Positions 49,025 through 58,325 of a DNA stretch of 58,508 nucleotides are shown here, one piece after another. Below the pieces are notes generated by a model. That model was not told the origin of the DNA. It saw only the letters and a list, made by a program, of their open reading frames with translations, and ran no database searches. Within the stretch, counting starts at the first letter, position 1. Each line of letters opens with the position of its first letter. The DNA lies in assembly GCA_021785355.1 (NCBI GenBank), contig JAJYFR010000006.1:1-58508 (forward strand). Reading direction: 5' to 3'. The position numbers and the translations under genes were made by a program. The stretch comes from a bacterium (GTDB taxonomy: Bacteria > Patescibacteriota > Dojkabacteria > JAKAPS01 > JAJZLI01).

Positions 49025-50434
49025 ATGAGAGTAAGAACACGAATTGCTCCATCACCTACCGGAGATCCTCATATAGGAACGATATATCAGGCACTATTTG
49101 ATTATGCATATGCAAAACAAAATAAAGGAAATTTTATTTTAAGAGTTGAAGATACTGACAGAGAAAGATTTGTAGAAGGAGCAACTCAAAAAATCTTATC
49201 TTCTCTTAAGTGGTTTTCTATTGAACCTGATGAAAGTCCTGTGCATGGAGGAGATTTTGGACCATATGTTCAATCAGAGAGATTAGATATATATAAAAAA
49301 TATATTAACGATTTAATATTAAAAAAAGAGGCATATTTGTGTTTTTGTACAAAAGAAAGACTTGATCATATAAGAGAAGAACAAATAAAAAATAAACAAC
49401 AGCCTAAATATGATAAACATTGCTTAAATCTTACAAAAAAAGAGATTGATGATCTAATAAATAAAGGTACACCTTCTGTTGTTAGATTAAATGTCAAACC
49501 AGGAATTGATATTATTTTTAATGACCTTATCAGAGGAGAAATCAAAATTAAGACTGATTCATTTGATGATCAAGTATTATTAAAATCTGATGGATATCCA
49601 ACTTATCATGCAGCAGTAGTAATAGATGATCATTTAATGAAAATAACTCATATTATAAGAGGGGAAGAATGGATATCTTCTACTCCAAAACATATACTTT
49701 TATATAAAGCTTTTGAATGGGATATTCCTATGTTTGCTCATTTATCTTTACTTAGAAATAGAGATAAATCAAAAATATCTAAAAGACATAATAATACATC
49801 CATAGATTGGTACAAAAAAGAAGGATATCTTCCTGAAGCATTAACTAATTATCTTTTATTATTAGGGTGGTCTCATCCAGAAGGAAAAGAAGTATATTCT
49901 TTAGATGAATTTATTAAAAAATTTTCATTTGATAGGGTAAGTAAAGGTGGTCCTATCTTTGATATAGATAAACTTAATTGGATAAATGGTGTATATATAA
50001 GATCTAAAAGTGTTATTGAAATAAAAAAACTTATAAAGCCTTATTTAATATATGATATTGAAAATAAGAAATTAGAAGAGATTATAAAACTTATACAAGA
50101 TAGATTAAAAAAATTATCAGAAATAAATGATTTAATATCATTTTTTGTAGAAACACCTCAAATAGATCAAGAAATTTTGGAAAACATAATATCTAAAGAT
50201 AAAATAGATGAAATATGTGATATATCATATAAAACTATTGAGGATAAAGGTATTAATCGTGACACAGAAGAAACTCTTAGAAATTATGCTATAGAAAAAG
50301 GATATAATATTGGAGATTTCTTTATGATTATAAGAATAGTTACAACTGGTAAAAAAGCTACACCACCTTTATTTGATACATTATCTATAATAGGGAAAAA
50401 AGAAACATTAAAAAGGCTAAAGAATGGGAGATAG
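49025..50434 (+). CDS. gltX: glutamyl-tRNA synthetase
   Basis: 469 residues. The HIGH motif is in APSPTGDPHIGTIYQALFDY, and KMSKS in RDKSKISKRHNNTS. The catalytic domain ends YLLLLGWSHPEGKEVYSLDE and the C-terminal anticodon-binding domain follows. The gene's TAG stop lies inside the 5' acceptor strand of tRNA-Gln. A non-discriminating GluRS charging tRNA-Gln is plausible, but cannot be proven here. Confidence 0.95.
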   Translation: MRVRTRIAPSPTGDPHIGTIYQALFDYAYAKQNKGNFILRVEDTDRERFVEGATQKILSSLKWFSIEPDESPVHGGDFGPYVQSERLDIYKKYINDLILKKEAYLCFCTKERLDHIREEQIKNKQQPKYDKHCLNLTKKEIDDLINKGTPSVVRLNVKPGIDIIFNDLIRGEIKIKTDSFDDQVLLKSDGYPTYHAAVVIDDHLMKITHIIRGEEWISSTPKHILLYKAFEWDIPMFAHLSLLRNRDKSKISKRHNNTSIDWYKKEGYLPEALTNYLLLLGWSHPEGKEVYSLDEFIKKFSFDRVSKGGPIFDIDKLNWINGVYIRSKSVIEIKKLIKPYLIYDIENKKLEEIIKLIQDRLKKLSEINDLISFFVETPQIDQEILENIISKDKIDEICDISYKTIEDKGINRDTEETLRNYAIEKGYNIGDFFMIIRIVTTGKKATPPLFDTLSIIGKKETLKRLKNGR

Positions 50435-50496
50435 TTTAACGGTAAAACGCTACGCTCTGAACGTAGTAAGTCTAGGTTCGATTCCTAGTCTCCCAG
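50425..50496 (+). tRNA. tRNA-Gln (CUG), overlapping the gltX 3' end
   Basis: The acceptor stem is TGGGAGA with TCTCCCA, the D-arm TAGTTTAACGGTAAAACG, and the anticodon arm CTACG-CTCTGAA-CGTAG gives anticodon CUG. The T-arm is CTAGGTTCGATTCCTAG and the discriminator G. CCA is not encoded. The first ten bases are also the last codons and stop of gltX, so processing of the tRNA must cut within the gltX message. Confidence 0.93.
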
Positions 50497-50576: not shown

Positions 50577-50756
50577 ATGAGTAAAGAAGAGAATAAGAAA
50601 CTTATAAAATTATACCAAGAGTATAGACAAAGAAAAATATTGAAAGAGGATGTCTTACAATTTTCACGTGATTTTATGCCTGAAATGATTTATCGTACAA
50701 CTAAATTAGAAGGTGAGCCTGTTACAAGACAAATGGTATCTTTACTATTTAAATAA
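50577..50756 (+). CDS. Fic antitoxin-like peptide carrying the inhibitory helix
   Basis: 59 residues: MSKEENKKLIKLYQEYRQRK, then PEMIYRTTKLEGEPVTRQMV and SLLFK, stop TAA at 50754-50756. TTKLEGEP fits the inhibitory motif (S/T)xxxE(G/N), whose Glu blocks ATP orientation in Fic enzymes. It overlaps the Fic gene by one base (TAATG). Either this is a genuine two-gene class I antitoxin/toxin pair, or a single class II Fic gene recently split by a frameshift. The sequence alone does not decide. Confidence 0.6.
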   Translation: MSKEENKKLIKLYQEYRQRKILKEDVLQFSRDFMPEMIYRTTKLEGEPVTRQMVSLLFK

Positions 50757-51388
50757 TGGTCAAAAGTGGTACGAAACCTAAAGGCGCAACATCATATAAA
50801 GATACAGCTTTTGGAATTATTTCTCGAGAAGAACTTATTAAGCTTGAGATTGAAGGGATAAAGAGAGGACTAGAATATTTATATGATCTAGTGCAAAAAC
50901 AAGAACAGGTTGCAATTACTTCAGAATTAATAACGAAACTTCATGAAATTTCTTTTGGTTGGATTTTTCCTAAATGGGCAGGAAAATATAGAACAATTCA
51001 AGTAACATTTTCTGATAAAGAAGCTCCACCATATTATCAAGTATCAGAATTAATGTTCAATTTCTCTAAAGATATAGAATCACGGTTACAAAATCTCCCT
51101 ACTCCAGATAAAGAAAACTTTATTTTTGAAATAATATCCTTATCAGCTTGGTTTCAACATAGATTTGTTTTTATTCATCCATTCCAAGATTACAATGGGA
51201 GGACAGCACGAATGCTAACGACTTTCATATTACTACAATTCAAACTACCCTCTATTGAATTAAAAGCAGATACAGGAGATGACAGGAAACAATATCTTAA
51301 AGCAATGAGGAAAGCAGATGATGGTGATTATAAACTTCTTGAAAGACTTATTAGCCGAGCACTAACAGACAGTCTTAATCATATTTAA
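50756..51388 (+). CDS. Fic-domain AMP transferase toxin
   Basis: 210 residues. The catalytic motif is FIHPFQDYNGRTARM (His141; HxFx(D/N)xNxRxxR satisfied), with the preceding flap region GKYRTIQVTF (compare G.yR...v.v). Fic enzymes transfer AMP from ATP to target proteins. The inhibitory helix is encoded separately just upstream. Bases 51389-51619 hold only the short element at 51544-51568. Confidence 0.85.
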   Translation: MVKSGTKPKGATSYKDTAFGIISREELIKLEIEGIKRGLEYLYDLVQKQEQVAITSELITKLHEISFGWIFPKWAGKYRTIQVTFSDKEAPPYYQVSELMFNFSKDIESRLQNLPTPDKENFIFEIISLSAWFQHRFVFIHPFQDYNGRTARMLTTFILLQFKLPSIELKADTGDDRKQYLKAMRKADDGDYKLLERLISRALTDSLNHI

Positions 51389-51543: not shown

Positions 51544-51568
51544 AATTTGCTATGTATGGCAAAGACAA
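51544..51568. repeat. 25-bp near-palindromic element, copy 1
   Basis: AATTTGCTATGTATGGCAAA and GACAA; the core TTTGC...GCAAA is symmetric. A copy with one mismatch is at 54872-54896. Both stand 50-55 bp before the first ATG of a cassette (51620 and 54952), so a shared operator or promoter element is likely. Confidence 0.55.
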
Positions 51569-53225: not shown

Positions 53226-53460
53226 AATTTTCTTCTAGAAATACGTACCCTTTTTTACTTTCATTATCTAGATTTTAAGATATTTTATATCTCTTATCTA
53301 GGCTACACCCTATTTTATTCTCTAACTTACACATATCACATTAAAAGTTCGAATAATGTCAACAGTCCCCAGTTAACTCTTTTCAACCATGTATGAATAA
53401 CTTTTTAGTAAGTAGTTCAAGTTGTTATATAAAAACTGAGATCTATTTTTATTTTGAATA

Positions 53461-54771: not shown

Positions 54772-54811
54772 CTATTAGGGTTCTGACATTGTCCACAATA
54801 CCCTGTTGACA
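54772..54811. repeat. cassette-boundary repeat A
   Basis: GGGTTCTGACATTGTCCACA and ATACCC (54778-54803) plus TGTTGACAAT. Copies B (57083-57126) and C (58292-58325) follow in the same orientation. A and B bracket the graspetide cassette; B and C bracket the Fic gene. Confidence 0.6.
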
Positions 54812-54871: not shown

Positions 54872-54896
54872 AATTTGCTATGCATGGCAAAGACAA
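54872..54896. repeat. 25-bp near-palindromic element, copy 2
   Basis: AATTTGCTATGCATGGCAAA and GACAA, one mismatch from 51544-51568. It stands 55 bp before the graspetide precursor ATG and is probably part of its promoter or operator region. Confidence 0.55.
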
Positions 54897-54934: not shown

Positions 54935-54945
54935 AAGGAGGTGAT
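54935..54945 (+). promoter_or_regulatory. near-perfect Shine-Dalgarno of the graspetide precursor
   Basis: AAGGAGGTGAT lies six bases before the ATG at 54952. It matches 11 bases of the anti-Shine-Dalgarno complement and decides that this short frame is translated. Confidence 0.8.
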
Positions 54946-54951
54946 TATATT

Positions 54952-55080
54952 ATGGAAACATTAGAGAAAGATATAATAACACCATTAGAGTGGTTAACAG
55001 ATGATAATGTTCAAAAAATAACCATGTGGCAAACATATTCTACCCATAAGGATGATGCAGATGATACTAATGATGATTAG
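54952..55080 (+). CDS. graspetide (omega-ester/amide RiPP) precursor peptide
   Basis: 42 residues: METLEKDIITPLEWLTDDNV as leader, then QKITMWQTYSTHKDDADDTN and DD. The C-terminal part has clustered hydroxyl/amine donors (Thr24, Thr28, Ser30, Thr31, Lys33) followed by acidic acceptors (Asp34, 35, 37, 38, 41, 42), the layout of graspetide cores, where an ATP-grasp ligase makes side-chain ester or amide links. The strong Shine-Dalgarno and the ligase gene 77 bp downstream support it. The exact core motif matches none that I know (microviridin TxKYPSD, plesiocin TTxxxxEE). Confidence 0.75.
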   Translation: METLEKDIITPLEWLTDDNVQKITMWQTYSTHKDDADDTNDD

Positions 55081-55157
55081 AATAAATGGTAAAAGAGAAT
55101 AATTAAATATAAAAATAAAATTATTATCTACATTCTTTAATATTATTTTTTGTCTTT

Positions 55158-56984
55158 ATGATACATATAAGAAGAAAATATTATCTTGATATATACAAAG
55201 AGATATTCGTAATTTATTATAATAATGAAAGTGATCAACTTATTGATGAAGTCATTCAATATGTTTATGATAAATGTTTAGATGATATCTTTAAAGAGAT
55301 AGGTAAAATTTTCACATTTAAAGATAATCAATATTATTATGTTATGAAAACCGCAAAAATTGGGGTAAGATATAAACATAGTATTTATGTTTATAAAATT
55401 AATTTTAAACATAAATATAATTTACAATATGAAAAATTATTAAAAGAAATTCCAATGCTCTCTTCTGGTGAACTTATTCCATCCGTCAATGAAATGTACT
55501 TTAATAAAAAGAAAATGTATTTTGATAAAAAAAATCTGAGTTACTTTTCAACATATAAACTTTACAAAGATTTATTAAAGTTAAAATCTAATAAAGATAT
55601 AGAAGAAATATTTAATGGTAGAATAGAAGATTTAATACCTTTTTTAACATATTATAAATTTAGTAAAGTAATTTGTAACCTTTATTATTTAAAGACTCCT
55701 GATGAGAGACTAGATATAATAAAAGAATTTTTAACTTTTCCTTTTAATATTACGTACGATACTTTTTTATCTGAAATAATTGCTGAATTGGCATATTTGT
55801 CATCCATTAAAAAGTACAATGATGTTGCTAATAAATTGTTATCTCAGTTAATTAATAAGATAGAGAATGATGTATATATTCTTGCAGATACACAGATGGT
55901 AACCTTCAAAGGGTCATTTAACGAAAAAAATATTGATAAAATCTACAAATATATTAATAATAAAGTTGATTTATATTCACAAATAGACCCTGGAGGTTTT
56001 ATTGGAATTCTTAATAATCAAGATTTTTTTATATCAGATAAATATAAATATAAAAAAAGAAAGATATTAATTATATCAGAGCAAAATGACCCACATGTTG
56101 AGAGAGTGTTGAGTTTTATTAATCAGAAAAAATATCATGTAGATGTATTTGGTGTTAATGATTTAGAGAATGATGGGTATGTTGATACTCTATCAGAAAT
56201 GACTGGAGAATTTTTTGATACTGACAAAAGACATCATAGAGTATATGATATTTGTTGGTGGAGAAAACCAATATTTATTACTCCTTCTCAAAAATATTTA
56301 AAGAATATAAACCTATCTAATATTGCAAAAAAAGAAAAAATAAATTTTTTAGAAGGAATTATATTAAATATGTCAATAAAAAGTTGGGTGAATCATAAAT
56401 CAGATATGAAAAAAGCTTCAAATAAAATACATCAGTTAAGTCTTATAAGAATGAATATCCCTAGAACAGTAATTACTAATAAAAAGGAAGTCATTAAAAA
56501 AATATTTGAAGATAAGTTTATTATGAAAACGTTGCAATCTCAAAGTTTGGGATTAGAGGATGGTGTATTAAAAACAACTTTAACAAATATTAACGATATA
56601 GATAAAATTGATTTGAATTTTATGCCTGTTATCTGTCAGGAATTTATAGATAAAATTTGTGATATCCGAGTTACTATTGTTGGGAATAAAATATTTGCAG
56701 CTAAAATATTCTCACATTCAGAAAAATCAAAAATAGATTTTAGAACTGATTATAGTAGTTTAACTTATGAAAAATGTAAATTATCAAAAGATATAGAAGA
56801 TGAATTGTTGAGATTAAATAAATATTACAATCTTAATTATTCTGCCATTGATCTTATACAAGATAAAAATGGTGAGATATACTTTTTAGAATTAAATCCG
56901 AATGGTCAATATCTTTGGATTGAAGAGTCATTAACTCTTCCTATTTCAAAGAATATTGCATCTTTTTTAAAAGGAGATAAATAG
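55158..56984 (+). CDS. graspetide ATP-grasp ligase with large N-terminal extension
   Basis: 608 residues; known ligases of this kind (MvdC/MvdD) have about 320. The ATP-grasp part is at about 302-608: DICWWRKPIF (graspetide-type), SWVNHKSDMKKASNKIHQLS with IPRTVITNKKEV, FIMKTLQS (ATP-binding Lys457), CQEFIDKICDIRVTIVGNKI (Glu495, Asp502, Arg504), and YSAIDLIQDKNGEIYFLELN then PNG (Asp565, Glu578, Asn580). Residues 1-130 are unassigned; 160-295 are helical and resemble the ATP synthase delta subunit, ending VDLYSQIDPGGFIGILNNQD. It should ligate Thr/Ser/Lys to Asp in the precursor. No transporter or protease gene is beside it. Confidence 0.85.
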   Translation: MIHIRRKYYLDIYKEIFVIYYNNESDQLIDEVIQYVYDKCLDDIFKEIGKIFTFKDNQYYYVMKTAKIGVRYKHSIYVYKINFKHKYNLQYEKLLKEIPMLSSGELIPSVNEMYFNKKKMYFDKKNLSYFSTYKLYKDLLKLKSNKDIEEIFNGRIEDLIPFLTYYKFSKVICNLYYLKTPDERLDIIKEFLTFPFNITYDTFLSEIIAELAYLSSIKKYNDVANKLLSQLINKIENDVYILADTQMVTFKGSFNEKNIDKIYKYINNKVDLYSQIDPGGFIGILNNQDFFISDKYKYKKRKILIISEQNDPHVERVLSFINQKKYHVDVFGVNDLENDGYVDTLSEMTGEFFDTDKRHHRVYDICWWRKPIFITPSQKYLKNINLSNIAKKEKINFLEGIILNMSIKSWVNHKSDMKKASNKIHQLSLIRMNIPRTVITNKKEVIKKIFEDKFIMKTLQSQSLGLEDGVLKTTLTNINDIDKIDLNFMPVICQEFIDKICDIRVTIVGNKIFAAKIFSHSEKSKIDFRTDYSSLTYEKCKLSKDIEDELLRLNKYYNLNYSAIDLIQDKNGEIYFLELNPNGQYLWIEESLTLPISKNIASFLKGDK

Positions 56985-57082: not shown

Positions 57083-57126
57083 ATTATTAGGGTTCTGACA
57101 TCGTCTAAGATACCCAGCCAATGCGA
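57083..57126. repeat. cassette-boundary repeat B
   Basis: GGGTTCTGACATCGTCTAAG and ATACCC (57090-57115), then CAGCCAATGCGACAAT. It resembles repeat A over its full length, also starting with ATTAGGG. Bases 57127-57192 contain the promoter of the Fic gene: GATAAT at 57179-57184, eight bases before the ATG. Confidence 0.6.
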
Positions 57127-57192: not shown

Positions 57193-58185
57193 ATGAACTT
57201 AAATAAAAATACTAGTTACGTATTAATACATATTCTTAACGGGAATAATACTTCTAAAAAAATTAGCGAACAATTACGAAACGTCAATATTCGTTCTATT
57301 CAACGTGCTTTAATCAGACTAACAGACTTAGGATTATTGACACGTATCGGGACGAATCATCCTAATTACAGCATTAACTATGAAGTATTGTTAGACTTAA
57401 ACATTTCCGATAAATTACTAGAGAACGAAAATCGACCTAAAAGTATGTTCAATCATGAACTTATAGAATGGTTAACTAAATTATCTACTAAAGAACTAGA
57501 ATTGCTATTAAAAATCGATGATGATAAGTTAGTATTTAAACATCCCAATAAAATGACAGCTAAAGAACTGGAGTATCTTACTATTGAGCTTTCGTGGAAG
57601 TCGTCAGCTCTCGAGGGTAATACATATACATTATTAGATACTCAATTATTACTTCTAGAAGGAATAAAGGCTAAGAACAGAACAGAGTTTGAGACACAGA
57701 TGATTCTAAATCATAAAGATGCCATTGCTTTTATAGTTGAGAATAAAGAATTATTCTCCAATAACATAAAATTTAGAACAGTTGAAGAACTTCATAGGAT
57801 AATTGGTAAAAATCTAGGAATAGAGAGTGGAATTAGAAAACAAATTGTCAGGATCACTGCTAGCAACTATGAACCTCTATCTAACCCTCATCAATTAAGA
57901 GAAAATGGTGACTACATTTTGGAAATAATAAATAGAACGACTAACTCTTATATAAAAGCACTTCTGGCTCTTTCCCTAATTCCATATTTACAAATATTTG
58001 AAGACGGCAATAAAAGGACTGGAAGGATGTTCGCCAATGCCATATTAATAAGTCATATCAATAAAGGTTTTAGTCTACGCCAAACAGATGCTAAAAAACT
58101 GGCCATAGCTTATTTGGCTTTTTATGAATTCAACAGCATTCATGCTCTAAATAAGATTCTTAAAACTGAACTTCAATCAAACTAG
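57193..58185 (+). CDS. Fic-family protein with winged helix and altered catalytic motif
   Basis: 330 residues. The N-terminal winged helix (VLIHILNGNNTSKKISEQLR, then SIQRALIRLTDLGLLTRIGT) is followed by the class II inhibitory motif SSALEGN (Ser137, Glu141) and the Fic domain. The motif reads YLQIFEDGNKRTGRMF, so the catalytic His of HPFxxGNGR is Gln267 and Gly is Lys. AMP transfer is probably lost; a regulatory or different activity is possible. The 5' third uses CGT/CGA Arg codons (for example 57276-57309), unlike the AGA of its neighbours, a sign of transfer. Confidence 0.8.
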   Translation: MNLNKNTSYVLIHILNGNNTSKKISEQLRNVNIRSIQRALIRLTDLGLLTRIGTNHPNYSINYEVLLDLNISDKLLENENRPKSMFNHELIEWLTKLSTKELELLLKIDDDKLVFKHPNKMTAKELEYLTIELSWKSSALEGNTYTLLDTQLLLLEGIKAKNRTEFETQMILNHKDAIAFIVENKELFSNNIKFRTVEELHRIIGKNLGIESGIRKQIVRITASNYEPLSNPHQLRENGDYILEIINRTTNSYIKALLALSLIPYLQIFEDGNKRTGRMFANAILISHINKGFSLRQTDAKKLAIAYLAFYEFNSIHALNKILKTELQSN

Positions 58186-58291: not shown

Positions 58292-58325
58292 AATTAGTAT
58301 ATATGACATCTTCCACGATACACAG
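58292..58325. repeat. cassette-boundary repeat C
   Basis: ATTAGTATATATGACATCTT and CCACGATACACAG. It shares TGACAT-n-TCCACrATAC with repeat A but has lost GGGT. Nothing else is visible between 58186 and 58452. Confidence 0.4.

Follow-up and report, generated by a model that had tools for sequence, protein, structure and literature searches.

What does a 42-codon aspartate-rich gene directly upstream of an ATP-grasp gene do in a bacterium with a genome of 883 kb? The pair lies near one end of the 58,508-nucleotide stretch of DNA analyzed here (the window), which is the whole contig C8 of a 13-contig genome (G000), and an earlier note on it had proposed a graspetide locus composed of an Asp-rich precursor and an MvdC/MvdD-type ligase. 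Both open reading frames are found as described there: the precursor gene (54952..55080, +; coordinates as in that note) follows a Shine-Dalgarno sequence, AAGGAGGTGA (54935..54944, +), at a spacing of 7 nt to the ATG and is translated into the 42-residue product METLEKDIITPLEWLTDDNVQKITMWQTYSTHKDDADDTNDD, and after a gap of 77 bp comes the gene of a 608-aa ligase (55158..56984, +). All previously quoted ligase motifs (WWRKP, DIRVTIVG, LELNPNG, and others) are present. The protein combines a pre-ATP-grasp and ATP-grasp region (aa 301-604; 56058..56969, +; WWRKP, DIRVTIVG, AIDLI, and FLELNPNGQ), in which the last three, the catalytic motifs, are intact, with an N-terminal domain of about 300 extra residues outside known families (aa 1-300; 55158..56057, +). 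Based on profile, PDB-sequence, tree, and synteny evidence, we consider it highly probable that precursor and ligase constitute a minimal graspetide cassette, as the earlier note had supposed.

The profile search suggested at the time places aa 303-604 of the ligase close to TIGR04187 (1.4e-48), MvdD (7.7e-40), and MvdC (2.5e-39), that is, about 1e-39 for the latter two. Its scores of 165.7, 137, and 135 bits against TIGR04187, TIGR04184, and TIGR04185 lie below the curated cut-offs of 350, 475, and 425 bits, so that the enzyme is best described as a relative of the TIGR04187, MvdC, and MvdD subfamilies and not as a member. A search of PDB sequences retrieves CdnC (7mgv; 5.7e-23), the ATP-grasp ligases 5ig9 and 5ig8, and AMdnB (7m4s), and tblastn against plasmids retrieves proteins annotated as TgmB ATP-grasp ribosomal peptide maturase. 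With MdnB/MdnC, CdnC, and TgmB (TIGR04187), the window ligase shares the pre-ATP-grasp and ATP-grasp fold as judged by sequence, the catalytic motifs, and a precursor partner, but it differs by scores below the NCBIfam cut-offs, by its extra domain, by an identity of about 25-31% to the plasmid-borne relatives, and by its position in a tree of 24 rows. There it joins the plasmid-borne TgmB and other graspetide ligases (100/100), with the ligases of the window and of two related genomes (G005 and G004) forming a branch of their own (94/94).

These data also bear on whether the enzyme could instead be a RimK/LysX-like ligase that adds amino acids to an acidic peptide or other carrier and is no macrocyclase. 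The RimK Pfam model does score above its cut-off, and the peptide has an acidic C-terminus like the carrier proteins of such ligases, but we find this reading improbable: the rimK_fam match (4e-12, 46 bits) falls far behind the graspetide model (165.7 bits), the RimK-like proteins of the window's genome and of related genomes separate from the ligase in the same tree (100/100), and the precursors end in D, G, and D without a conserved C-terminal Glu. Another RiPP ATP-grasp reaction, such as head-to-tail cyclization or peptide ligation as in pheganomycin, deserves mention in that such ligases are indistinguishable without phylogeny according to Makarova et al. (PMC8939145). It seems very improbable here, with microviridin/chryseoviridin-type side-chain ligases as the top models and solved relatives and with T/S/K residues kept beside D clusters in the cores.

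Seven genomes (G001-G007) of the eight in the family were compared with G000. Two of them, G005 and G004, carry the same gene pair and the other five are without the ligase; among 97 related genomes, close relatives of the ligase are found only in these two (81% identity to the window in G005 and about 51-53% in G004). An equivalent small gene with an identical Shine-Dalgarno sequence and METLE start lies directly 5' of both homologues, encoding orthologous peptides of 49 aa in G005 (locus L005) and 42 aa in G004 (locus L006) with 71% and 46% identity to the window peptide. Homologous ligases without an upstream Asp-rich peptide, named in the earlier note as evidence against a graspetide locus, are therefore not seen among these close homologues, and this synteny shows that the 42-codon gene is not a chance open reading frame.

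Aligned with each other, all 3 graspetide precursors share METLE...P-[LI]-[ED]-W-L-x-D, T-Y-[ST], and terminal Asp clusters, and the G004 core is otherwise divergent from those of the window and G005, which corresponds to the RiPP pattern of a conserved leader and a diverged core. A look for conserved core T/S/K and D positions, as suggested in the earlier note, thus finds T-Y-[ST] and the Asp clusters but not the remainder of the G004 core. For the window precursor, we predict a leader of aa 1-21 (METLEKDIITPLEWLTDDNVQ) and a core of aa 22-42 (KITMWQTYSTHKDDADDTNDD), with a putative boundary between the two. T28, S30, T31, K33, T39, D35, D37, D38, and D41 are retained between window and G005, and their donor and acceptor roles are predicted only. 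The earlier note could not match the core to a known group. The core partly fits a published signature, in that the CPR core pattern TxxxTx(6-10)Dx(1-4)D (branch 1) matches the window precursor from T24, but no group is assignable because the signature fits this peptide and not its own orthologue (neither the G005 nor the G004 precursor matches). A strict match to the leader motif Phhx(1,2)h, which is present in about half of known graspetide precursors and is not required, was not found in the family leaders, where P-[LI]-[ED]-W-L stands instead.

The locus thus holds an ATP-grasp ligase of the MvdC/MvdD/TgmB type and an adjoining precursor with a leader and a core containing T/S/K and D/E, as in graspetide loci. 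The gene pair, the ligase family, the conserved leader, the divergent core, and purifying selection are evident from the sequence, with three loci (window, G005, and G004) behind the comparison. In the mechanism that we propose, the ligase would bind the precursor via the conserved leader METLE...PLEWLxD, and its ATP-grasp domain would use ATP to activate core Asp side chains (acceptor candidates D35, D37, D38, and D41). Thr, Ser, or Lys side chains (candidates T28, S30, T31, K33, and T39) would attack the activated Asp, presumably forming ester or amide macrocycles with one water lost each. The N-terminal 300-residue domain may be an accessory part for substrate positioning, stability, or partner binding, and leader removal and export are probably accomplished by enzymes coded elsewhere. 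The earlier note was right that no transporter or protease adjoins precursor and ligase in the window locus. Elsewhere, G000 encodes one C39-like peptidase (167 aa) that is not fused to a transporter, and nothing was found to link it to the window precursor. It lies between a D-Ala-D-Ala-ligase-like protein and another ATP-grasp protein (L147; contig C1, about 46.6-50.0 kb), an arrangement that might represent another small peptide pathway.

Three features had gone unmentioned in the earlier note, namely the extra N-terminal domain of the ligase, a 5' module common to YcaO operons, and 28-bp sites flanking the cassette. The N-terminal domain (aa 1-300) matches neither Pfam nor NCBIfam families, nor credibly any PDB sequence, and among 86 class genomes it is present only in G000 and G005. 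Between these two, codon positions 1/2/3 differ 35/18/71 over 293 codons of the domain and 54/23/80 in the other half of the ligase. As these differences fall mainly at third codon positions, both halves are under purifying selection as protein, and the domain is a working part. The G004 ligase has no such domain and starts directly at the pre-ATP-grasp region; because it pairs with nearly the same leader, the domain is not generally needed with the METLE leader or for its recognition. An ATP synthase delta/OSCP identity, suspected from "DPGGFIGIL", was rejected because, against a profile of 17 AtpH proteins from Patescibacteria, the domain did no better than its shuffled copies, and no match was found for a LanB/SpaB_C-like identity. 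AlphaFold2 with 2-3 sequences gave pLDDT values of 38 and 46, a failure due to too few relatives, and Foldseek with the second model returned noise (E 0.07 and worse). A ligase working with an additional protein part is known from rosaritide (MirB/MirC; Carter et al. 2026, PMC13097080), but the partner there is separate and PpiC-like, whereas the window ligase carries a fused domain with a putative accessory role.

The same substitution pattern speaks to whether the locus might be a decaying RiPP remnant, with an inactive cassette or a peptide that is no longer a substrate. A frameshift at an A-run in the G004 ligase and the absence of the cassette from 5 of the 8 family genomes would fit such decay, but it is scarcely credible for intact ligases in window and G005 that diverged mainly at third codon positions and for a locus that retains Shine-Dalgarno sequence, leader, and upstream palindrome. 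The frameshift itself is a one-base event (L006:6640-6660) that splits the gene in a low-coverage assembly and may be error or decay. A contig end of G005 (L005:1-174) retains the final 57 codons of another, nearly identical ligase copy with one residue different, owing either to a tandem duplication or to an assembly effect.

Returning to an intact graspetide cassette, its precursor is preceded by the near-palindrome TTGCTATGCATGGCAAAGACAA (54875..54896, +), a probable operator/promoter. When up to 3 mismatches are allowed in the family genomes, it recurs 5' of both METLE precursors of G005, at window positions 51547-51568, and at a few other places. We searched the 86 class genomes for GGAGG followed after 4-14 nt by METLE codons and found six sites, comprising the 3 graspetide precursors, 2 peptides of YcaO operons, and 1 chance match; the reversed pattern gave zero sites in the same genomes. 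The chance match lies inside a glycyl-tRNA synthetase-like gene of G028 and is not counted as a RiPP precursor. After the second METLE peptide of G005 (METLELKDLSLDDLSDGIDRIEGIGGIDIVCRCSADKECDDGGNGKQGSESAPPPKK; L115, G005:C16:1-6303) come genes for a prolyl-oligopeptidase-family protein, a SagD-family YcaO (5.5e-53), a SagB-type dehydrogenase (2e-34), and an ABC-F protein, so that this Patescibacteria genome apparently has a complete azole-type RiPP cluster. In G004, a METLE peptide other than the graspetide precursor (L114, G004:C28:1-3780) lies 5' of a further YcaO gene (7.7e-33), with an ABC-F gene nearby. Because the module of Shine-Dalgarno sequence and METLE precedes YcaO azole-type operons in these two relatives, one leader start seems to serve two RiPP chemistries. 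AAGGAGGTGA is kept in all 5 METLE precursor loci of the family, and the DNA around the ribosome site and the first five codons is nearly identical among them. The simplest reading is that these 5' ends are of common ancestry and were later coupled to different enzymes, whereas convergence on short leaders is less likely because untranslated DNA also matches, albeit across five loci only. The NHLP and Nif11 leader families (Haft et al. 2010, PMC2887384) similarly connect one leader family to different modification enzymes, but METLE is unrelated to them in sequence, forms only a short leader start within a single bacterial family, and pairs graspetide ligases with YcaO operons. If the leader start is common to ATP-grasp and YcaO pathways, leader recognition across two chemistries becomes directly testable, and a truly shared leader would hint at how tiny-genome bacteria exchange peptide weapons or signals. 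Plasmid pLS_3 of Ligilactobacillus salivarius (L155) encodes a distant ATP-grasp relative and, next after it, a SagB/ThcOx dehydrogenase.

The cassette is part of an accessory island between tRNA-Gln(CTG) (50425..50496, +), directly 3' of gltX, and the contig end, with the gene order gltX, tRNA-Gln, Fic, MazG-domain protein, guanylate kinase-like protein, small membrane protein, HicB/HicA (by inspection), uracil-DNA-glycosylase-like protein, precursor, ligase, and second Fic. The two Fic-domain proteins (50756-51388 and 57193-58185) are different, and the latter is the immediate right-hand neighbor of the cassette. Exact copies of TTAGGGTTCTGACATYGTC are present at 54775 and 57087, where chance would give none, and the sequence extends to an imperfectly palindromic 28-bp site, RGGTTCTRACATYGTCCACGATACCCAG, whose direct copies flank precursor and ligase as left (54778..54805, +) and right (57090..57117, +) cassette boundary. 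Diverged copies lie left of the HicBA/UDG module (53342..53370, +) and to the right of the Fic module (58298..58325, +; 7 mismatches). At up to 3 mismatches, the site is found in G000 (6), G001 (2), G004 (2), and G005 (3) but not in G002, G003, G006, or G007, and in an alignment of 17 copies, some of them more diverged, conservation is sharply limited to one block and the flanks are unrelated. Outside the window, copies are located on C1, C3, C4, and C7 of G000, G001:C19, G004:C39, and G005:C22 and C24. Most lie between co-directional accessory genes (toxin-antitoxin, kinase-like, nucleotidyltransferase-like, and CYTH-like; names by inspection), with exceptions in G004 and on C7, and the window's HicBA pair recurs in G001 with different neighbors. 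Contigs C1, C3, C7, and C8 start or end near site copies, and C3 and C7 have the same sequence left of the site and different sequence right of it, as expected if neighbors vary between strains or the assembler was confused. No copy was found beside the G005 cassette.

Because the gene pair lies between direct copies of a site that also delimits further accessory modules, across four genomes of the family, this arrangement suggests a mobile cassette in a site-specific cassette array, with recombination as the putative process; a regulatory or terminator repeat is also possible. Integron cassettes and Xer-site (pdif) modules likewise have short direct repeats around co-oriented accessory genes including toxin-antitoxin pairs, but no integron integrase was recognized, and the two tyrosine recombinases of G000 are a pair present in every family genome, including those without the site. 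Literature searches for integrons in these phyla gave nothing relevant by title and abstract. More tentatively, and with considerable doubt, the 5' module, at some loci together with the same operator, might be a class-independent RiPP entry tag for graspetide and YcaO pathways, with cassettes shuffled via the 28-bp sites and the ligase N-terminal domain as a new RiPP accessory domain.

The earlier note's view that descriptions of RiPP pathways are rare for such genomes is outdated for graspetides: loci of this class were predicted by Makarova et al. 2022 (PMC8939145) for two candidate-phyla branches, and groups in which candidate-phyla members are numerous are listed by Carter et al. 2026 (PMC13097080). 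Given the publication of candidate-phyla graspetides in 2022, host and class are not new; the new parts are the ligase architecture, the shared leader start, and the repeat-bounded setting. The loci of Makarova branches 1 and 2 have small-genome hosts of the same radiation and a short precursor 5' of an MvdC/D-like ligase, and the Tiki-type gene after the ligase in branch 2 has a counterpart in a weakly Tiki/EreA-like gene (below the Pfam cut-off) next after the G004 ligase. In contrast to these loci, the leader here, compared by published motifs, is METLE...P[LI][ED]WL and not strictly Phhx(1,2)h, and the window locus is without a cluster-23 protein, TPR, or Tiki gene and has a ligase with a fused 300-aa domain. 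The cassette provides a small, concrete pathway by which graspetide formation in an episymbiont-type genome can be tested, and its ligase architecture was not found in the families searched. Viral contigs gave no relative. Of 380 genomes of the phylum, about a dozen encode distant graspetide ligases, several of them adjoining short T/S/D-rich peptides (e.g., MKSKRKPVKVVPFGAKYLKKVAMANKRSSSNTNTGTGTSQPDADHD in G222) and genes of DUF6624, which was reported near graspetide groups by Carter et al. 2026 (PMC13097080). Two graspetide loci of the same class (L010:1295-3017 in G028 and L011:1290-3027 in G055) encode 31-aa peptides, MFAVKYFTQVESTDANATSTVDKSSGQTDFD and alike, followed by the ligase, and the gene 3' of the ligase is DUF6624 in G028 and similar-looking in G055.
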